Positions 8,361 through 30,027 of a stretch of DNA of 32,668 nucleotides are shown here, one piece after another. The notes below the pieces were generated by a model. The model searched no databases. It was not told the origin of the DNA and saw nothing but the letters and a program-made list of their open reading frames with translations. The stretch is from Chloroflexota bacterium. Its GTDB lineage: Bacteria > Chloroflexota > UBA6077 > CF-72. Made by a program: the position numbers and the translations under genes. Within the stretch, counting starts at the first letter, position 1. Each line of letters opens with the position of its first letter. The stretch spans positions 1 to 32,668 of the forward strand of contig VBGG01000137.1 in the NCBI GenBank assembly GCA_005883405.1. Reading direction: 5' to 3'.

Positions 8361-9692
8361 ATGCTGAGTCGCGAGGACAACGAGCTGATCACCAGGACGG
8401 GACCGGGAACGGCGATGGGCGAGGTGCTGCGGCGCTACTGGATGCCTATCCTGCTGGAACGCGAGCTGGCAGAGCCGGACGGAGAGCCAGTCAGAGTACA
8501 GGCCCTCGGCGAACGACTCGTTGCCTTCCGTGACACCGAGGGGCGGATCGGCCTGCTCGACGAGTTCTGCCCGCACCGCCGCGTCTCGCTGTGGCTCGGC
8601 CGGAACGAAGAGTGCGGCCTGCGCTGCGTCTACCACGGCTGGAAATACGACGTTGACGGCAACTGTGTCGATCAGATGAACGAGCCCGGCGAAAACAGCT
8701 TCGCCGACAAGGTCCACATCAAGCACTACCCGACCCTCGAGCTGGGCGGCATCGTGTGGACCTTTATGGGGCCTGCTGAGAAGATGCCGCCACCGCCATC
8801 GTTCGCCTTCACCCGGGTGCCAGCCAGCCACCGCCATGTCTCGAAAGTCATCGAGGAGTGCAGTTGGCTGCAGGCGCTCGAAGGCGGCATCGACACGTCG
8901 CACGTGCCGATCCTCCACCGCGCCCTGGTCGCCAACGGCAAACGCCCCGGCGTCGATCCGCGCAGTCCGTTCGTGCGCGGTGGTCCGCCGACGCTCGAAC
9001 TTGACATGACCGACTACGGCTACCGCTACGCTGGCATCCGCAAGCTGCCGGAGGGCGGCAGGTACGTGCGCGCCTACCACTACATCGTGCCGTTCACCCA
9101 GCTGCGACCCCAACAGCTACGCCTCGTCGGTGCGCCAGACCGCGCACGGGAGGTCGATGCGGGTCATTTCTGGGTGCCGATGGACGACCACACGTGCATG
9201 GTGTGGAACTTCCTCCACAGCTACGGCGAAGAGCCCATCGAGGACGAGGAACGCCGCGAATACGGTAACGGCAACGGTCCGGACCACGTGGACCAGACGA
9301 CCTTCCGCGCATTTCGCAACGCGCGCAACCACTGGGGCATCGATCGAGCGGCGCAGAAGACGGAGACCTTCTCCGGGATCGAGGGCGTCAACGCCCAGGA
9401 TCGCGCAGTTCAGGAGAGCATGGGCGCGATCGTCGACCGCAGTGAGGAGTACCTCGGTCCGGCCGACAAGGCGATCATCGCCATGCGACGGCTGCTGCTC
9501 CAGTCCGTCCAGACGGTCCAGGCGGGCGGGTCGCCACCCGCGGTCGACACCAGCTACTACGACCTGCGCGCGATCGAGCGGATCGTACCTGACGGCGAGG
9601 AGTGGCGCGATTCCGTCCTACCACTCATGTATCCGGCGGCCGAGGAGAACCTTGACATCATTCCGGCTGACAGGGTGCTAGCCCCTGTATGA
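8361..9692 (+). CDS. Rieske non-haem iron oxygenase, large subunit (phthalate 4,5-dioxygenase-like)
   Basis: Terminal oxygenase component that adds oxygen to an aromatic or related substrate using electrons from a separate reductase. The Rieske [2Fe-2S] ligands are C70-x-H72 and C89-x2-H92 (CPHR ... CVYHGW). The mononuclear iron site is D178, H181 and H186 in GGIDTSHVPILHRAL. This pattern and the overall 443-residue length fit the phthalate 4,5-dioxygenase/vanillate O-demethylase-type group. An excellent ribosome site (GAGGAGGTG) precedes ATG 8361. No ferredoxin reductase is seen in the window. The adjacent ABC transport genes suggest that the substrate is imported. The exact substrate is unknown. 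Confidence 0.9.
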   Translation: MLSREDNELITRTGPGTAMGEVLRRYWMPILLERELAEPDGEPVRVQALGERLVAFRDTEGRIGLLDEFCPHRRVSLWLGRNEECGLRCVYHGWKYDVDGNCVDQMNEPGENSFADKVHIKHYPTLELGGIVWTFMGPAEKMPPPPSFAFTRVPASHRHVSKVIEECSWLQALEGGIDTSHVPILHRALVANGKRPGVDPRSPFVRGGPPTLELDMTDYGYRYAGIRKLPEGGRYVRAYHYIVPFTQLRPQQLRLVGAPDRAREVDAGHFWVPMDDHTCMVWNFLHSYGEEPIEDEERREYGNGNGPDHVDQTTFRAFRNARNHWGIDRAAQKTETFSGIEGVNAQDRAVQESMGAIVDRSEEYLGPADKAIIAMRRLLLQSVQTVQAGGSPPAVDTSYYDLRAIERIVPDGEEWRDSVLPLMYPAAEENLDIIPADRVLAPV

Positions 9693-9774: not shown

Positions 9775-10368
9775 ATGATGTCCTCGGTTATCCATGCCCG
9801 CCTGGAGTACCAGTGCGGCCACGCAGCGCTGGTGTCGCTGCCGCGTATTAAAGGTGAGACTGCCGCTCAGCGCAACGCGCGTGTCGCGCGGGAAAAGAGC
9901 GCCGCCCTGGAGCGCCAGTGCGACTTCTGCGGCCCGCTGGTGCTGGAGCTCGTTACAGCTGCCCCGCCCGAGTTGGCACTGGTGGCGGCCGATTTGCCGT
10001 TGACAGTGGTAGCCGTCGAAAGCGTGGCGGCAGGCGTCGATGGACACCAGCTTAACGGAGCCGAAGGACCCGCGGAGACGGTCGAGGTCGAAGTGCTGGA
10101 ACCGGTTGCGGTCGCGGTGGCGGAGCCGGTCGAGCTACCCGCCGCCGCGTCTGAAGCCGAAGTCGAAGTCGAAGTCAGCTCTGGCAGGCAGCCAGTCGTG
10201 CGCCGCGCCGCACGCGCGAAAGCACCGCGGCCAGCCGCGGATCTGCGGAGGTTCCTGATCGAGTACCGGGTAGACCGCGTTGTCCGGGCGGTCGACATGC
10301 GCGACGCGCTGCGTCAAGTAGCGTCCCTGGGCGCGACCGACGTTCTGGAGATTGCCCGACAGGACTGA
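9775..10368 (+). CDS. Unknown protein: N-terminal zinc-knuckle-like region plus C-terminal 40-residue module
   Basis: I do not recognise a family. The first ~55 residues contain YQCGHAALVSLPRIKGE followed by a basic helix and QCDFCGP, a C-x-H ... C-x2-C arrangement that could bind zinc. The middle (about 60-155) is low complexity, rich in Val, Glu, Ala and Pro. The last 40 residues (158-197) form a compact predicted alpha/beta segment ending DALRQVASLGATDVLEIARQ. This segment aligns without gaps to the last 40 residues of the protein at 15823-16533 (16 identities by eye). ATGATG at 9775/9778 gives two start choices. It sits between the Rieske oxygenase and the ABC ATPase on the same strand, with 82 bp and 35 bp gaps. 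Confidence 0.75.
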   Translation: MMSSVIHARLEYQCGHAALVSLPRIKGETAAQRNARVAREKSAALERQCDFCGPLVLELVTAAPPELALVAADLPLTVVAVESVAAGVDGHQLNGAEGPAETVEVEVLEPVAVAVAEPVELPAAASEAEVEVEVSSGRQPVVRRAARAKAPRPAADLRRFLIEYRVDRVVRAVDMRDALRQVASLGATDVLEIARQD

Positions 10369-10403
10369 GCAATCGGCCGTTCTGCCGGCTCGGTAGCTAT
10401 CAC

Positions 10404-11174
10404 GTGCTCGAACTGCAGAAGGTGACTGTCCAGTATGGTGGGTTCACCGCCGTCGAGGACATCACCTTCGAAGTTCCAGCTGGTCAGTTCGTGGCGGTAG
10501 TCGGGCCGACCGGCTGCGGTAAGTCATCGCTGCTCAACCTGGTGGCGGGTCTGCTCGCACCAGCGCAGGGCTCCGTTCGCACCGGCGCGCGGCCAGTCAA
10601 CGCGGTCAACCGCGACTGCGGCTACATGTTCCAGGTGGACGCGTTGCTGCCGTGGAAGACGGCCCTTGATAACGTCCTGCTGGGTCCGATACTACGCGGA
10701 ACCTCCAGGACGGAGGCCAGGAGCCTGGCGCGCCAGTGGTTGGCGCGGGTCGGACTCACCGGGTTCGAAGACCGCTACCCGCACCAGCTGTCCGGAGGAC
10801 AGCGGAAGCGGGTGGCGATGGCTCAGGTGCTCGTGAATCGTCCGCCCATCCTGTTGATGGACGAGCCCTTCAGCGCGCTGGACGTCCAGACGCGCGCCCT
10901 CATGGAGCAGGAGTTGTTGGGGCTCTGGCAGGAGCAGCAGGCCACGGTCCTGTTCGTGACGCACGATCTGGAGGAGGCGATCGCGCTGTCCGATCGCGTG
11001 CTGTTGCTGACCGCTGGACCTCGCTCGCGGCTCAAGGGCGACCACGCGGTTGACCTTCCCCGACCGCGCAACGTGGTCGAGGCTCGTTTCACGCCGGGTT
11101 TCAGCGAGATCTACGAGCGTGTCTGGAGCGGCCTGCGCGAGGAGGTGCTGGCGAGCTATGCGCGCACACGGTAG
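10404..11174 (+). CDS. ABC transporter ATP-binding protein, NitT/TauT (SsuB/TauB-like) family
   Basis: Cytosolic ATPase subunit that powers import through a permease dimer. Walker A is GPTGCGKS (34-41), the Q loop is MFQVDALLPW (Q77), the ABC signature is LSGGQ (129-133), Walker B is ILLMDEP (D153, E154) and the switch histidine is H187 in VTHD. All are intact. DALLPWKTALDNV is typical of the nitrate/sulfonate/taurine subfamily. The start is GTG 10404, giving the usual LELQKVTVQY beginning; 256 residues. It is followed by a permease and a lipoprotein binding protein, forming a complete importer. The spacing to the permease (124 bp) is unusually long for an operon and contains a small perfect palindrome. 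Confidence 0.93.
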   Translation: MLELQKVTVQYGGFTAVEDITFEVPAGQFVAVVGPTGCGKSSLLNLVAGLLAPAQGSVRTGARPVNAVNRDCGYMFQVDALLPWKTALDNVLLGPILRGTSRTEARSLARQWLARVGLTGFEDRYPHQLSGGQRKRVAMAQVLVNRPPILLMDEPFSALDVQTRALMEQELLGLWQEQQATVLFVTHDLEEAIALSDRVLLLTAGPRSRLKGDHAVDLPRPRNVVEARFTPGFSEIYERVWSGLREEVLASYARTR

Positions 11175-11265
11175 TTTCTACCCCAGAGGGGACCCGCGGG
11201 GGGATCGCATCGACCGGAGCCAGCGAGATGACGGTAGCGGCCCGCGGGCGGCCGACACATCTCTT

Positions 11266-11282
11266 CCGAAGGGTCCCTTCGG
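11266..11282. other. 17-nt perfect palindrome between ABC ATPase and permease genes
   Basis: An 8-bp stem around a single central base (arms CCGAAGGG and CCCTTCGG). It lies in the 124-bp gap between two cotranscribed ABC genes, shortly before the permease start. It could be an operator or an mRNA hairpin that tunes relative expression. The loop is too short for a good terminator. Confidence 0.3.
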
Positions 11283-11298
11283 GGAAAGCTGATCGTTG

Positions 11299-12111
11299 AT
11301 GCGCGCACGCGCAACTAACCGGGGGATGGTTATCGGACTGCAACTGGCCATCCTGGTGGCGGTGATCGCCCTGTGGGAGGTCGGCACCAACACGTCGACG
11401 GGGGCGAACCGCTTCCTGATTGATCCATTCATCTGGTCGCGACCGTCGCGGATCGTCGGCCGCGTGGGCGAATGGCTCCAGAGCGGCATCATCCTCAACA
11501 ATGTCTTCATCACCCTGTATGAAGCGCTGATGAGCTTTGTGCTCGGCGCGTTGGCCGGTGTGGTGGTCGGCTTTGTCCTGGCGCGGTCCGACCTCTGGTC
11601 GCGGGTGCTGAACCCCTTCATCCAGGTTCTCAACGCGTTGCCGCGGCTCGTCTTCGCCCCGATCTTCTTCCTGTTGTTCGGTCTGGACGAGAATTCGAAG
11701 ATCGCGCTGGGCTTCTCACTGGTGTTCTTCATCGTCTTCTTCAATGCCTACCAGGGCGTACGGGAAGTCGATCGCAACGTCTTCAACAACGTCCGCATGC
11801 TTGGCGCCAACGAGCGCCAGATGACCTGGCACGTGCTGTTGCCCTCGGCCCTCACGTGGATCCTCACCAGCCTGCACACCTCGGTTGGTTTCGCAATGGT
11901 CGGCGCGGTCGTCGGCGAGTACCTCGGCGCGGCGCGCGGACTGGGCCACGTGATCGCCCAATCCGAAGGCAACCTCGACGCGACAGGCGTTTGGGCGGGG
12001 ATGCTGGTGCTCTGCGTCGTGGTCGTGGTGGTAGAAGTGTTAGTAACACAGCTGGAGCGCCGCCTGGTGCGCTGGAAGCCACGGCCCGCCGGCGAGCTGC
12101 TCACGGCTTGA
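11299..12111 (+). CDS. ABC transporter permease, NitT/TauT (SsuC/TauC-like) family
   Basis: Inner-membrane subunit with about six hydrophobic segments, the first at IGLQLAILVAVIALWEV. The cytoplasmic EAA-type loop follows the pattern VFNNVRMLGANERQMTWHVLLPSAL. LPRLVFAPIFFLLFGLDENSK and the RGLGHVIAQSEG stretch are family-typical. Length is 270 residues from ATG 11299; a TTG immediately before (11296) is an alternative. It lies between the ATPase and the binding protein genes, so it is the cognate channel. It differs clearly from the permease at 6561-7379, so the window encodes two different NitT/TauT-type permeases but only one ATPase. Confidence 0.92.
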   Translation: MRARATNRGMVIGLQLAILVAVIALWEVGTNTSTGANRFLIDPFIWSRPSRIVGRVGEWLQSGIILNNVFITLYEALMSFVLGALAGVVVGFVLARSDLWSRVLNPFIQVLNALPRLVFAPIFFLLFGLDENSKIALGFSLVFFIVFFNAYQGVREVDRNVFNNVRMLGANERQMTWHVLLPSALTWILTSLHTSVGFAMVGAVVGEYLGAARGLGHVIAQSEGNLDATGVWAGMLVLCVVVVVVEVLVTQLERRLVRWKPRPAGELLTA

Positions 12112-12126
12112 GGAGGATAGACAGAC

Positions 12127-13194
12127 GTGTACAGATCGACTGTCCTGAGCATGGCGCTGGTGTTCGTCACCGCGTGCAGCGGCGCCGCGACGAATCCGCC
12201 ATCTGCAACGGCGCCCGCCGCGAGCTCCGGCGGTGCGGCGGCGTCGGGCGGAGCGCCCGAGAAGTCGGCGCTGAAGATCGGCGTTGGCGGCCAGGGCCAG
12301 ATCATCTATATGCCGCTCACACTGGCTGACCAGCTCGGCTACTTCAAACAGGAGGGCCTGTCGGTCGAGATCCAGGACCTGAAAGGCGGCGCGGATGCAC
12401 TGACGGCGATGATCGGTGGTTCCACCGATGCCACGATGGGCTTCTACGAGCACACCATTCGCACCCAGACGCAAGGCAAGCTCATCCAGATGATCGCGAC
12501 CTGCGATCTCTACCCGGGCCTGGTGATGTTCGCGGGGAAGTCGCACCCCGAGGCCAAGACGATCAAGGACCTGGCGAACCTCAAAATCGGGATCACGTCA
12601 GCCGGCTCGTCGACCGAGGAGATGGTGAAGTTCCTCTTCAAAAAGAACGGGCTCGACCCGGCGGCGGCCCAGACCGTTGCCGTGGGAAGCGGCGGACCCG
12701 CCATCACCGCGCTGAAGAATGGCGTGGTCGACGCACTGGTGACGGTCGAGCCGGCGGCATCCACGATTGAGAAGAACAGCGATGGGAATGTGCTCTATGA
12801 CACACGTACCGAGCAGGGCACCCGCGACGTTTTTGGCGGAGCGTGGCCCGCGGGCGGCTTTTACGTGCCGGTTGACTTCGTGCAACAGAATCCCCGCACC
12901 GCACAGGCGCTGGCACGCGTGGCCGTCGATACCTTGAAGTACATCAAAGATCACAGCCCAGAAGACATCGCTGCCAAGCTACCGGGGCAGTTGTTTTATC
13001 CAGACGGTGATCAGGCGGCCTTCGCCCAGGTGCTGGGTGCCAACCAGAAGATGTTCAGCCAGGACGGCAAGATGCCCAGCGACGGGCCGACCAACGTGCT
13101 GGAAACGCTCAAGGCCGCGGATACACAGACGGACTGGTCCAAAGTCGATCTGTCGAAGACGTTCACCAATTCGTTCGTTGAGGCGGTGAAGTAA
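12127..13194 (+). CDS. ABC transporter substrate-binding lipoprotein, NMT1/SsuA-like
   Basis: Extracytoplasmic solute receptor of the ABC importer. A lipoprotein signal ends FVTAC, placing the lipidated cysteine at residue 17. A Ser/Ala/Gly/Pro-rich tether runs to about residue 47, then the binding domain starts LKIGVGGQGQIIYMPL. The motifs LGYFKQEGLSVEIQDLKGG and LKNGVVDALVTVEP are typical of the NMT1/SsuA/TauA group. The start is GTG 12127, preceded by AGGAGG (12111-12116), which overlaps the end of the permease gene. Length is 355 residues. Ligand unknown: nitrate, sulfonate, aromatic acid and thiamine-precursor types all use this fold. Its last 32 bp overlap the convergent channel gene. 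Confidence 0.92.
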   Translation: MYRSTVLSMALVFVTACSGAATNPPSATAPAASSGGAAASGGAPEKSALKIGVGGQGQIIYMPLTLADQLGYFKQEGLSVEIQDLKGGADALTAMIGGSTDATMGFYEHTIRTQTQGKLIQMIATCDLYPGLVMFAGKSHPEAKTIKDLANLKIGITSAGSSTEEMVKFLFKKNGLDPAAAQTVAVGSGGPAITALKNGVVDALVTVEPAASTIEKNSDGNVLYDTRTEQGTRDVFGGAWPAGGFYVPVDFVQQNPRTAQALARVAVDTLKYIKDHSPEDIAAKLPGQLFYPDGDQAAFAQVLGANQKMFSQDGKMPSDGPTNVLETLKAADTQTDWSKVDLSKTFTNSFVEAVK

Positions 13195-14338
13195 CCGGCG
13201 CGTCGCGGTGGAAGGGTGAGTCCGGGCCGAGCACGGGGGCGGGCGAGGCGAAGTCCCAGGCGGTGCTCTCCCAGTTGTCGGTTGCGTCCGGGCGAGGCAC
13301 CCACGGCGGCAGCTCCATGAGCAGGTGCTCCGACAGGGCTACCAGGTACGGCTCATACGCCGCGCGTATGGCTGCCAGACGTTGTTCGGTCACGATCAGC
13401 TCGGAGTGCGCGCCCTTTCCGATCAGCTCCCACAGTCGCTTGGCTGCCGCCGGATCGAGCCGCTCCTTGTCTGGCGCTCGCGGCGCCGTGTTGAACACGT
13501 GCGCCAGATCGGCCACCGCGTGACGCGCGATGGCGAAGGTGAAAGCAGCTTGCCGACTGGCCCGACTCGATCCGCAGGCCTGGATAAATGCGCACAGATC
13601 CAGAATCACCGCCAGCGCCGCAAGCCACGATTGGTTCTCGTGCTGAGACCTGAAATAGGCCAGCGTTGGATACGACAGGTGGCTTTCGAGCAGGTCCGCC
13701 ACCCAGCTCTCCCATTCGCGCAGCAGCTGATCCAGAACCATCAGGTCGCCGCCAACCACGTTGCGGCGCAAGAGCTCGCCAACGCTCGGCGGCGAGCCGG
13801 CGCGTTGGTCGAGCAGCGAGACATTTGTCTCGCGACGGGCGAACATCTGGTAGACGATCGGCAGGTAGCCAATAACCAGCGCGAGGAAGCCGAACCCGGT
13901 TCCGCCCTCGACAACCGTCAGCGCGCGCGCGAACGTGGTGGTGGGCACGACGTCTCCCAGACCCAGCGTGAAAAAGGTCGTACCGCTGACGTACACGACG
14001 GTACCGTAGTCGACCGGTCCAGCCTGGCTGCTACTGAGGCCTGAGCCGGTGGCCCAATGCAGAAAGCTGAAGCCAATGATGATCACGATCGCCCACACGA
14101 CGAACAGCAGGATCAGCGACAGCGGGCCATAGAAGCTCAGGAAGGTCTCGCGGCGAGTCGCGTCCTGGATGCGGCGCGCCATGGCGCTGTACGGACGCCA
14201 CGTGACGACGTAGAAGATGAGCGCGATGCGAAAGCGTCGGGAGACGCGGCGTGGGAGGACTACGGTTTCGAAGGCGTCCCACAGGCCGCCGGCGACGAGC
14301 CCGAAGCCGAATACGAAGACCACCACCGAGGCGAGCAT
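13163..14338 (-). CDS. Ion-channel family protein with K+-channel-like pore
   Basis: Membrane protein with an N-terminal hydrophobic segment (about 3-20), a helix at about 72-92, a re-entrant pore loop, and a further helix at about 137-165, followed by a ~220-residue soluble region. The pore has TTFFTLGLGDVVP (filter T124-D129), matching the Ion_trans_2 pattern, although TLGLGD replaces the classic TVGYGD. The soluble part is mostly helical and carries no recognised RCK/TrkA NAD motif. Length is 391 residues from ATG 14338. Its 3-prime end overlaps the convergent ABC binding-protein gene by 32 bp. It may conduct K+, but selectivity with this filter is unproven. Confidence 0.82.
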   Translation of the reverse strand: MLASVVVFVFGFGLVAGGLWDAFETVVLPRRVSRRFRIALIFYVVTWRPYSAMARRIQDATRRETFLSFYGPLSLILLFVVWAIVIIIGFSFLHWATGSGLSSSQAGPVDYGTVVYVSGTTFFTLGLGDVVPTTTFARALTVVEGGTGFGFLALVIGYLPIVYQMFARRETNVSLLDQRAGSPPSVGELLRRNVVGGDLMVLDQLLREWESWVADLLESHLSYPTLAYFRSQHENQSWLAALAVILDLCAFIQACGSSRASRQAAFTFAIARHAVADLAHVFNTAPRAPDKERLDPAAAKRLWELIGKGAHSELIVTEQRLAAIRAAYEPYLVALSEHLLMELPPWVPRPDATDNWESTAWDFASPAPVLGPDSPFHRDAPVTSPPQRTNW

Positions 14339-14380
14339 TTCAGATACCGGTTCAGGGATTAACCGCCACGCCGGCGGACC

Positions 14381-14971
14381 TCACTCCAGCCAGTGCGTCG
14401 GCGCGCGGGCAGCGAAGCGAAAGCGGCGCGCGGGGCTCTCGCGATCGACTTCGACTTCTACCTCCACGAAGCCAGCAGCTTGGAGTCGATCGGCGAGCGT
14501 CGCGGGGTCGACGGGAACACACACGTCGCCCGCGTGCAGCTCGCGCCAATCTGGCCGATCGATACTGTCGACGCCGACGAGTAATCCGCGGGGGCGGAGG
14601 ACGCGGCGCAGCTCGGCCAGCAGGCGATCCTGATGTTCAGGCGACGGCACGTGATGCAGCATGGTGAAGCACGTCGCCCCGGAGAACCGCCCGGCCGGAA
14701 ATGGCAGCGATGCGCCATCGGCGTGAACCACGCTGACGTTGTTGCCGGACATGCGCGCCGCCAGCGCTGTCGCCAGGGCGTCGTCCACGTCTACGGCGGT
14801 GAGCTGCCTCACCCGCCTGCGCAGCACATCGGTGGTGAGACCCGGCCCCGGTCCAACCTCCAGGACGTCATCACCCAGGTCGCGTCGGCTCAACGCCCAG
14901 GGCAGGATCTCCTTTTCGACGGTTTCGGCCCATTCGGCGCTGGCACACACCTCGAGATGTCGCTTGTTCAT
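14381..14971 (-). CDS. Class I SAM-dependent methyltransferase
   Basis: Rossmann-like methyltransferase of 196 residues, cytosolic. Motif I is VLEVGPGPGLTTDVL (about 36-50), the acidic residue after beta-2 is in LTAVDVDDALA, then VVHADGASLPFPAGRFSGA (motif II region), FTMLHHVPSPEHQDRLLAE and LRRVLRPRGLLVG (motif III). The methyl acceptor is unknown. The N-terminal MNKRHLEVCASAEWAE is common in small uncharacterised Methyltransf_11 proteins. It is divergent from the gene at 14999 with only 27 bp between starts, so the two may share a control region. Confidence 0.88.
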   Translation of the reverse strand: MNKRHLEVCASAEWAETVEKEILPWALSRRDLGDDVLEVGPGPGLTTDVLRRRVRQLTAVDVDDALATALAARMSGNNVSVVHADGASLPFPAGRFSGATCFTMLHHVPSPEHQDRLLAELRRVLRPRGLLVGVDSIDRPDWRELHAGDVCVPVDPATLADRLQAAGFVEVEVEVDRESPARRFRFAARAPTHWLE

Positions 14972-14998
14972 CGCAGCTAGTGGGTAGAGTAGCAGTCG

Positions 14999-15637
14999 AT
15001 GGCGCTCAGGAACCGGGTCACGCCGTTTGGTGAGATCGTCGCGGTTGCCGGTCGTGGAACGCTGATGGGCAACCGCGGCGTGCTACACAATCGCGAACGG
15101 GACCTCGTGCGCGACTGGCAAGTGCGACGCTGGATCGCGTGCCGCCTTGAATTTCGCGGTCGCCACCGCGAAGTGATGACTCCTGGCTCGTACACCGAGC
15201 TGTTTTTTCTGGACGAAGCTGCCGCGCTAGCCGACGGCCACCGGCCATGTGCCGAGTGCCGCCATGCCGATTACATGCGATTCCAGGCTGCCTGGCGGAG
15301 CGCGCGTGAGCTTCTGAAAGTGCCCTCCGCCGATGAAATGGACGTAGTCCTGCACGACGAACGGCGAACCGCGCCCTGGCGGAAACGCACACACACAGCG
15401 GAAATCGCTTCGCTGCCCGATGGGAGCTACATCGCACTGGATGGCCGCGCCTGGCTGGTATACGGCGAATGGGTGCACGCCTGGTCCCCGGATGGCTATG
15501 TCGAACGTCAGCGTCGGCCGCCGTCGGGTACGGTCAGCATGCTCACACCGCCATCTATCGTCGGGGCGCTCCGCGCCGGTTACCGATCGGTCGTCCATCC
15601 GAGTGCCAATCCCGGCGGGACCTCCGGAGCTTATTGA
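14999..15637 (+). CDS. Conserved-looking hypothetical protein with RPCxxC site
   Basis: No family assigned with certainty. The N-terminal half looks constrained: LRNRVTPFGEIVAVAGRGTL, GNRGVLHN, WIACRLEFRGR, MTPGSYTELFFLDEA and then GHRPCAECRHADYMRFQ. C84 and C87 in RPCxxC, together with C48, could form a metal site resembling the RPCxxC of Ada N-terminal domains, but the surrounding fold is not obviously Ada. The second half (WRKRTHTAEIASLPDGSYIALDG) could be a small beta domain. Length is 212 residues; the start ATG 14999 lacks a clear ribosome site. It is divergent from the methyltransferase. A nucleic-acid-related role is only a guess. Confidence 0.7.
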   Translation: MALRNRVTPFGEIVAVAGRGTLMGNRGVLHNRERDLVRDWQVRRWIACRLEFRGRHREVMTPGSYTELFFLDEAAALADGHRPCAECRHADYMRFQAAWRSARELLKVPSADEMDVVLHDERRTAPWRKRTHTAEIASLPDGSYIALDGRAWLVYGEWVHAWSPDGYVERQRRPPSGTVSMLTPPSIVGALRAGYRSVVHPSANPGGTSGAY

Positions 15638-15822
15638 CTGGTGTCCAGACATTTGCATCCGAATGTGCTATTGTCCGGGTACCAGTCATTCGCCGTGGGA
15701 CCACACCGTTGGGCAATCATTCGGCGCGACCTCCGCGTCTTGAGTCACGCCCTTGACATCCACCGCGTGGCGACACGTGCGTCGATACTGTAAGTTTCGG
15801 GAGACGGAGGACAGGAGAGGTG

Positions 15823-16533
15823 ATGGAGACGGAGAGCCGTACGGAAGCCGGAGCGGGCGAGTCGCGTCGCGGCGGGGGCGAGGGCGCGGGGACACGCCGC
15901 AAGTTGAACGAGGAGCAGGAGCGAGAGGTCACGCGCCTGTACGCGGAGACCGACACACCGGTCTCTGAAATCAGCAAGCGATTTGGCATCGGAGAATCGT
16001 CGGTCTATCGCGTCGCTCAGCGGCATGGCGCCTCACTGCGTGGCAGGACGGCTCCAACGCCAGCGGCGAGCACCGGCCGCCCGGCGGGCAGGCCGCCAGG
16101 CCGACCGGCAGGCACCGGAGGCGGTCGCGGTGGCGCGCGTGGCGGCGCCGCCGCGGCGGCAACCACCACCGGACGAGCTGCCGGTGGCACGCGTGGCCGG
16201 CGCGCCGCTGGCGCAGCCGCGGCAACCCCCACGCCGACGCGGGCACCGTCCGCCAATGGCCGCCGCAGGGGCGCCGGCGGAGGACGCGGTGGGGCACGCG
16301 CACTGGCCACCCGTGCGGCTGCCACGGCCGACCGCGCTGGCGGACGCGGGCCCGGACGAGGTCGAAGGGCGGGTGCCGCGGCTGGAGCAACACGGGCCAC
16401 AGTCGCTGCGCGTACGTTCCGAGTGAGCTTCACCGCGGTGCGTGTATTCACCGCCAACTCGATGGCCGATGCCATCCGCCAGGCGGAGGCCGCCGGAGCA
16501 ACCGATATCACTGGCGTCCAGCGCAACGATTAG
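15823..16533 (+). CDS. HTH protein with AT-hook-like and Gly/Arg/Ala-rich linker and C-terminal 40-residue module
   Basis: Three parts are visible. Residues about 27-72 (RKLNEEQEREVTRLY ... ISKRFGIGESSVYRVAQRHG) form a resolvase/Hin-type helix-turn-helix. Residues about 80-195 are a low-complexity linker rich in Gly, Arg and Ala, starting with three GRP cores (TGRPAGRPPGRPAG) like AT-hooks. The last 40 residues (FRVSFTAVRVF ... AIRQAEAAGATDITGVQ) match the C-terminus of the protein at 9775-10368. ATG 15823 has AGGAG 5 nt upstream; a GTG at 15820 is less likely. A DNA-binding, possibly nucleoid-associated role is inferred. A palindromic dispersed repeat begins 5 bp after the stop. Confidence 0.78.
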   Translation: METESRTEAGAGESRRGGGEGAGTRRKLNEEQEREVTRLYAETDTPVSEISKRFGIGESSVYRVAQRHGASLRGRTAPTPAASTGRPAGRPPGRPAGTGGGRGGARGGAAAAATTTGRAAGGTRGRRAAGAAAATPTPTRAPSANGRRRGAGGGRGGARALATRAAATADRAGGRGPGRGRRAGAAAGATRATVAARTFRVSFTAVRVFTANSMADAIRQAEAAGATDITGVQRND

Positions 16534-16538
16534 AAAAA

Positions 16539-16650
16539 CTCCCTCTCCCTCTCGGAGAGGGCTGGGGTGAGGGGTGCGTATCTTCGCAAACGTTTGCTCT
16601 CGTACGCACCCTCACCCGCGCTGCGCGCGGCCTGTCCCAAAGGGAGAGGC
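16539..16650. repeat. Dispersed palindromic repeat, copy A
   Basis: About 112 bp with outer arms CTCCCTCTCCCTCT... and ...AAAGGGAGAGGC, inner arms GGGTGAGGGG and CCCTCACCC, and a right-hand GCGCTGCGCGCGG segment. It is one of three copies in the window (also 28711-28823 and 31167-31280). It lies between two genes of the same strand, 5 bp after the HTH-gene stop and 14 bp before the cupin start. The core (16571-16610) is inverted relative to that of copy C. Confidence 0.9.
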
Positions 16651-16664
16651 GAATTGAGAACTTG

Positions 16665-17030
16665 ATGAAGGTTGTCAGAATCAGCGATCTGCCGAAAGAG
16701 CCGGCCGAAAGCCCGTTGTTCACCGGCGGCCAGGTGTTCCGTCAATTGATCATCGACCCGTCGGAGTCACGCAGCTTCAACTTCAGCATCGTCAACTTCA
16801 GCGCGGGTTCGCGGAACAAGTTCCACAGGCACACGTCCGATCAGATACTGATCGTGACCGAGGGCACCGGCGTGGTGGCCACCGCCGCCGAGCAGCGCAG
16901 GGTCAGCACCGGCGACGTGGTGCTCATCCCGGCCGGTGAAGACCACTGGCACGGCGCGCCAGGCTCGACGCCCATGAGCCACATTACGATCCAGACGAAG
17001 GAGTCGCAGACGACGCAGACGGAGGCATAA
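16665..17030 (+). CDS. Small cupin-domain protein
   Basis: Single-domain beta-barrel protein of 121 residues. Cupin motif 1 appears as NKFHRHTSDQILIVTEGTG, with H-x-H and a Gln where the metal-binding Glu often sits. Motif 2 is GDVVLIPAGEDHWHGA. Metal binding is therefore plausible but with an altered ligand set. ATG 16665 is preferred over an adjacent TTG at 16662. The ribosome site is unclear, the nearest purine tract being the end of the palindromic repeat about 15 nt upstream. Function unknown; such cupins often bind a small acid or act beside oxygenases. Confidence 0.85.
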   Translation: MKVVRISDLPKEPAESPLFTGGQVFRQLIIDPSESRSFNFSIVNFSAGSRNKFHRHTSDQILIVTEGTGVVATAAEQRRVSTGDVVLIPAGEDHWHGAPGSTPMSHITIQTKESQTTQTEA

Positions 17031-24085: not shown

Positions 24086-24291
24086 CATCCTGACGAGGAA
24101 CCCGTGGGCTCCGCTCGCAGGCTCGCTTCGCGCAGGGCAGGCCCGTGTGCTACGCTCGCAGGCTCGTTTCGCGCAGGGCAGGCCCGTGGGCTCCGCTCGC
24201 AGGCTCGCTTCGCGCAGGGCAGGCGACGAAGGATCTATCCAGCTTCTCGTTGCGAGCGTCGGAGTCGCGGATCCTTCGCGAGCTCAGGATG
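24086..24291. repeat. Palindromic element with 8-bp inverted ends, containing 41-bp tandem repeats
   Basis: Inverted ends CATCCTGA (24086-24093) and TCAGGATG (24284-24291) bound about 206 bp. A nested inverted pair CGAAGGATC / GATCCTTCG lies at 24227-24235 and 24270-24278. Together with the internal tandem repeats this fills the gap between the exported-protein gene and the methyltransferase. It looks like a non-autonomous dispersed repeat; no target duplication could be confirmed. Confidence 0.6.
24101..24223. repeat. Three tandem copies of a 41-bp unit
   Basis: Units 24101-24141, 24142-24182 and 24183-24223. Units 1 and 3 are identical; unit 2 differs at a few positions (GTGTGCTACG for GTGGGCTCCG, and CGTTTC for CGCTTC). 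Each begins CCCGTGGGCTCCGCTCGCAG and ends CGCGCAGGGCAGG. Confidence 0.95.
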
Positions 24292-28742: not shown

Positions 28743-28823
28743 GGGTGCCGTATAAGCACGAACGCTCCTGCGGATAAGCCACCCTCACCCGCGCTGCGCG
28801 CGGCCTCTCCCAGAGGGAGAGGC
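28711..28823. repeat. Dispersed palindromic repeat, copy B
   Basis: About 113 bp with the same outer arms as copies A and C and a divergent core. It fills the gap between two convergent genes: its TGA (28740-28742) ends the CYTH gene and its right edge is 5 bp from the stop of the 139-residue gene. Long complementary arms would form a hairpin on both strands. Confidence 0.9.
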
Positions 28824-29691: not shown

Positions 29692-29703
29692 ACGATCTTA
29701 CGC

Positions 29704-30008
29704 GTTCCGCGTTCCGGGTTCCGCGTTCCGGGTTCCGCGTTCTGGGTTCCGGGTTCCGCGTTCTGGGTTCCGGGTTCGTTCTCGCGTTCGCGCGTTGCGC
29801 GTTGCGCGTTCGGGCCTGCAGCGCGTTGCGCGCTTCTGCCTGCCGCGCGGGGCGCCACCGCGTGGCAGACGCGCACTCGCCCGCGGGTGGGATGTCCTCG
29901 ATGGGCTCTGCCACAACGCACAAGGCACCAACGCGCGGGCCAGAACGCGAGAACGCGCGAACGAACCCGGAACCCAGAACGCGGAACCCGGAACGCGGAA
30001 CCCGGAAC
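29704..30008. repeat. Heptanucleotide tandem repeats in inverted orientation
   Basis: The stretch 29704-29773 is ten consecutive 7-bp units of the form GTTCCGC, GTTCCGG or GTTCTGG. A second block on the opposite strand lies at about 29963-30008. The segment 29711-29756 is, by eye, perfectly complementary to 29963-30008 (46 bp). The 206 bp between them are rich in GCG steps and contain no convincing gene. The whole 336-bp gap 29692-30027 lies between a minus-strand operon and the M20 gene. Confidence 0.9.
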
Positions 30009-30027
30009 GGGCTATACCCTCGAAAAG

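Follow-up and report, generated by a model that had tools for sequence, protein, structure and literature searches.

H-NS-like proteins are built from a DNA-binding domain, a linker, and an oligomerization domain (PMC6936261), and plant bHLH factors carry a C-terminal ACT-like dimerization domain that gives them a pair-dependent affinity (PMC8202348). Here we describe a module of 40 residues that is shared by the C-termini of two proteins, A (197 aa; 9775–10368, plus strand) and B (236 aa; 15823–16533, plus strand), encoded in a 32,668-nt stretch of DNA from a Chloroflexota bacterium (contig VBGG01000137.1; the whole stretch that was analyzed is called the window). Compared with the DNA-bridging proteins H-NS, MvaT, Lsr2, and Rok, B has a DNA-binding domain and a charged linker predicted to be disordered, and its tail may serve as an oligomerization domain. 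It differs from them in that the order is reversed, with an N-terminal DNA-binding head and a C-terminal pairing piece, and in that its helix-turn-helix (HTH) is of the resolvase type. No H-NS, MvaT, Lsr2, or Rok family was among the Pfam and NCBIfam matches of A and B. By analogy, the model proposed below would liken B to the plant bHLH factors, as a transcription factor with an alpha/beta dimerization domain at its C-terminus.

The last 40 residues of A (residues 158–197; 10246–10365) and of B (residues 197–236; 16411–16530) aligned without gaps at 16 of 40 identical positions, as the initial annotation had counted, with an E-value of 6e-7 in a single BLASTP comparison. Both tails end in the GATD...R-x-D pattern described there. 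In 200,000 end-anchored shuffles of one tail, the number of identities never exceeded 13, and the best ungapped A–B score was 90, against maxima of 54 for whole-protein shuffles and 48 for local, 20-residue shuffles. Because both the global and the local shuffles stayed far below the score, low-complexity composition does not explain the match, and the similarity of the tails is real.

Only two copies of the module were found in the genome of the window at the thresholds used. Two other species of the genus, G001 and G002, each possess orthologs of A and of B, and G002 also carries a third protein, C, in which a short basic linker joins an HTH to the same tail. The tail of A was identical to that of C at 20 of 39 positions (E = 4e-9), a stronger match than that between A and B, which independently confirms that the module is shared between zinc-type and HTH-type heads. 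The two architectures noticed initially are in fact three. In total, seven module proteins were found in three species of one genus, all seven with the module at the extreme C-terminus, and six of its residues (R11, D20, R23, Q24, G29, and A30) were invariant.

The orthologs of A in G001 and G002 were 53% and 44% identical to A overall, and those of B were 62% identical to B in both species. Conservation was concentrated in the heads and tails, which kept their length, whereas the linkers varied from 105 to 140 residues in A and from 121 to 146 in B. The head of A (residues 1–54) was 80% identical among orthologs, with a ratio of nonsynonymous to synonymous substitution rates (dN/dS) of 0.12; the ratio was 0.06 for the HTH of B, and 0.31 and 0.23 for the tails of A and B, respectively. 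The module is thus under purifying selection behind hypervariable linkers. The tails clustered by protein, with 18–33 of 39 positions identical within ortholog sets versus 12–15 of 39 between A and B in every species. Since A tails group with A tails and B tails with B tails across species, the shared module predates the three species.

Relatives were sought more widely in about 560 Chloroflexota genomes, made up of a 400-genome sample of the phylum (including the class of the window) and two further classes, partly overlapping. Nothing convincing was found outside the genus in these genomes, where the phylum-wide search scored a limited number of first-look candidates per genome and could miss a more distant relative. 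A profile of A with only two rows recovered the most divergent copy at 1.5e-7, and similarly divergent copies in the searched genomes should therefore have shown. The weak matches outside the genus that were examined were set aside as a ComF-like protein, an S41 protease, D-aminopeptidase-like proteins, and wrong-strand frames; one further weak match (L081) covered 19 residues. Searches for A in GTDB species contigs, IMG/VR, phages, and plasmids were negative, and searches with B in GTDB contigs and IMG/VR gave nothing beyond the congeners and proteins that have the HTH alone and lack the tail. No family in Pfam, NCBIfam, or PHROGs reached its cut-off on the module, in agreement with the proposal of an undescribed domain; a match of one tail to DUF433 (0.035) was dismissed as chance. 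The tail had no sequence match in the PDB, and none of the papers brought up by literature searches on dimerization folds, on domains like HisG or ACT, and on nucleoid proteins with AT-hooks described such a module in its title or abstract. The initial annotation had anticipated many C-terminal copies behind varied DNA- or zinc-binding N-termini, an expectation not borne out by seven proteins in one genus. We conclude that the module is specific to one lineage in the genomes searched and unannotated in the libraries searched, and is not the widely spread domain that had been anticipated.

In A, the module follows a predicted zinc-binding N-terminal domain (CGH...CDFC, C14–C52; 9814–9930) and an acidic low-complexity linker that is basic only right before the module (9931–10245). 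The initial annotation had seen a C-x-H/C-x2-C knuckle in the head; its residues are present, but C14-G-H16 and C49-D-F-C52 form two half-sites with a spacing of 32 residues and not a single compact knuckle. All four putative zinc ligands (C14, H16, C49, and C52) were invariant in the three orthologs, and the domain matched no Pfam family. A distant Chloroflexota frame (L046, in genome G264) starts with VHDYVQYRCGHQKWVSFPRIKAE...CTDC (YRCGH...CTDC), like the head of A, and lacks the A tail.

B begins with a resolvase-type HTH (residues 23–75; 15889–16047), which was recognized earlier and matched HTH_7 (PF02796) at 29.1 bits (E = 1.1e-6), above the Pfam cut-off of 23.8 bits; the B orthologs and C also exceeded this cut-off, at 26.0–26.9 bits. 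B and C share this HTH with the resolvase/invertase proteins, but in B it is N-terminal rather than C-terminal and there is no recombinase catalytic domain, the Resolvase catalytic domain being unmatched in Pfam and NCBIfam. The basic Ala/Gly/Arg linker that follows (16048–16410) contains the AT-hook-like repeats already pointed out: three GRP cores, at positions 85, 89, and 93 of the protein (16075–16107). The frames of both A and B are open over their whole length, and an alternative GTG start for B lies one codon earlier, at 15820.

The two linkers are of opposite charge. In the window, A has no basic and 12 acidic residues over the first two thirds of its linker; across the three species this part has no basic and 12–24 acidic residues. 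The B linker has 22 Lys and Arg and one Asp or Glu in the window, and 22–31 basic and 0–1 acidic residues across the three species. Mainly because this polarity is conserved, we suspected that A and B are oppositely charged partners, with A possibly serving as an acidic counterpart to B, the protein that carries the DNA-binding head. An association with nucleic acids, as suggested initially, has a good basis for B and C in their HTH and basic linker; for A, whose linker is acidic, it is a guess.

Structure prediction with AlphaFold2 gave the tail of A, aligned with six relatives, a mean predicted local distance difference test score (pLDDT) of 84 and a single helix at module residues 18–27. 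In the full-length model of B, the linker was disordered (pLDDT about 40), whereas the tail scored 79–91 and had its helix at residues 214–223, which are again module residues 18–27. The same fold had been predicted for both segments, and at the level of secondary structure this is what was found. The HTH of B consisted of three helices (pLDDT 81–88 per ten-residue block over residues 31–70), and Foldseek on B returned weak HTH matches only. In the monomer models the segments flanking the tail helix were confident but unpaired with each other, which fits strands awaiting a partner chain. The putative strands show hydrophobic alternation and the helix is amphipathic; the polar invariant residues R11, D20, R23, and Q24 lie beyond this core pattern.

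HisG_C (PF08029), the ACT/PII-like regulatory domain at the C-terminus of ATP phosphoribosyltransferase, was the only Pfam family that matched more than one tail, with E-values of 0.0015 (19.0 bits) and 0.062 (13.9 bits); the other tails were unmatched. Module residues 7–38 aligned to positions 41–71/73 of the family, that is, its last beta-alpha-beta half, including the succession of helix, GA, and strand. Comparison of profile hidden Markov models with two sets of HisG_C sequences from the phylum, one of which includes HisG of the window's own genome, gave scores of 22.9 and 26.3. Column shuffles reached on average 8.4 (standard deviation 1.7) and 9.9 (standard deviation 2.2) and none of 250 attained the observed scores, with no control in these shuffles for convergent strand-helix-strand patterns. 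Membership of the family was rejected, because the match is below the cut-off, covers half of a domain of which about 73 positions would be expected, and is preceded by a disordered linker. The module also differs from HisG_C in lacking a catalytic partner domain and in standing behind HTH or CxH/CxxC heads. Since the cut-off was missed and the shuffles are blind to convergence, we took the resemblance to HisG_C as a hint about structure rather than a family assignment.

The reading we favor, tentatively and at a little less than an even chance, is that the module is a small C-terminal half-domain that pairs in trans, dimerizes B, and allows A to pair with B and modulate its DNA binding. The module would form a strand, a helix, and a strand, with the two strands apart in the monomer, and two copies would combine in trans into a ferredoxin/ACT-like alpha-beta sandwich. 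Dimerized in this way, B could bind or bridge DNA with two HTHs and two basic arms. A could pair with B because it too ends in the module, preceded in A by a zinc-site-like head and an acidic linker; A would bring its acidic arm and zinc-type head to the complex and might lower, retarget, or sense-modulate the DNA binding of B. Of the roles proposed in the initial annotation, docking or oligomerization, the module has the shape to be expected for oligomerization. Homology of the module across the three architectures, its conservation at the extreme C-terminus under purifying selection, the helix predicted in both proteins, the conserved opposite linker charges, and the closeness of A and B in the window and in G001 are established here; dimerization, an A–B heteromer, and a regulatory function are inferred. 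A genus-specific chromatin-like pair, in which the basic, HTH- and AT-hook-like B is opposed by the acidic, zinc-headed A as a charge-reversing antagonist and their half-domains complete one ferredoxin-like fold in trans, seems rather unlikely. If the module does pair in trans, it would be a very small bacterial dimerization piece, 40 residues long, found on a DNA-binding protein and on an oppositely charged protein, and would offer a simple way to make a regulator and a counter-regulator from one common clip. The module in any case provides an annotation for proteins otherwise read as low-complexity hypotheticals and a compact candidate pairing piece for study; its limited spread, to one genus among those searched, makes its general importance modest.

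Several observations weigh against pairing in trans. The models are of monomers and rest on shallow alignments (seven and four rows), DSSP assigned no strands, so that the strands rest on the hydrophobic pattern and the HisG_C resemblance, and the tail, a very short query for a Foldseek search, had no match there in the PDB. The best HisG_C score, 19.0 bits, is lower than the Pfam gathering cut-off of 23.5 bits, and the helix-GA-strand pattern recurs in unrelated proteins (the ComF-like, S41 protease, and D-aminopeptidase-like proteins), so that the resemblance may be convergent. A stands paired with a Rieske oxygenase gene and B with a cupin gene, not with each other, and in G002 the two lie on different contigs.

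The chief rival, distinctly less probable than pairing though well worth considering, is that the module is a docking tail, folded either by itself or once bound, through which A, B, and C attach to a common receptor, for example a polymerase subunit, a chaperone, or a protease adaptor, without pairing with itself. This would account for the strictly C-terminal position in 7 of 7 proteins and for the same tail on unrelated heads, and it agrees with the invariant polar residues R11, D20, R23, and Q24, the last three of which fall on one side of the helix (i/i+3/i+4). However, a dimer interface would be served just as well by such a polar face, the analysis brought up no candidate for the receptor, and confident flanks without a partner strand suggest strand pairing. 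An improbable alternative would make the module a ligand-sensing remnant of an ACT/HisG_C-like domain, two halves of which dimerize into a small-molecule site through which the DNA binding of B is controlled. In HisG, this regulatory domain binds an effector, and the resemblance appears in more than one tail, well above column shuffles. Against this, the module lacks the first half of the domain and any sign of an effector-binding loop, and its match is under the curated cut-off.

A and B are 6 kb apart in the window and about 1.4 kb apart in G001, which might mean that the similarity of these neighbors arose by a recent local duplication or by gene conversion and reflects no common function. 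Tail identity within ortholog sets nevertheless exceeds that between A and B in every species, indicating that the split is older than the species and that the copies were kept separately under selection; C is located elsewhere with no A beside it, and this explanation is largely refuted and very improbable. Chance or shared composition might be suspected because Ala, Arg, and Val abound in both sequences and the genome has 65% GC, but shuffles never approached the score and the invariant residues are kept in the orthologs, so that this explanation is refuted and its probability is practically nil.

The gene neighborhoods of A and B are partly conserved. In all three species, a Rieske oxygenase gene (LigXa_C in Pfam; 8361–9692, plus strand) lies directly upstream of A, and B is followed directly by a cupin gene (Cupin_2, 1.8e-13; 16662–17030, plus strand). 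A class I methyltransferase gene (Methyltransf_11, 1.2e-18; 14381–14971, minus strand) is the convergent neighbor of A in the congeners; in the window it is on the same side of A, after four intervening genes. In the congeners the convergent methyltransferase and A frames overlap tail to tail, by 17 bases (L023:893–909) and by 4 bases (L020:11773–11776), so that the end of the module coding sequence of A is common with the 3' end of the methyltransferase gene. Between A and the methyltransferase gene, the window has an NMT1/BPD-type ATP-binding cassette (ABC) transporter (ATPase, permease, and binding protein; 10404–13194) that is absent from this place in G001; an insertion or a rearrangement would explain the difference. 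A 212-residue protein with no Pfam match (14999–15637) is encoded just upstream of B, where the congeners seem to have a counterpart.

Several repeats were observed in the window. Just after B, at 16541–16561, there is a hairpin, CCCTCTCCGAGAGGGAGAGGG, which is followed on the minus strand by a run rich in T. It seems to have counterparts near 28750 and 31200, and together they are perhaps an intergenic repeat family; a strict pattern for it gave no match. Arrays of 7-base units (CGCGTTC/GAACCCG; 16 and 6.6 copies) occur at 29701–29811 and 29963–30009, just upstream of a peptidase-like gene, and a 41-base unit is repeated three times with 92% matches at 24101–24224.
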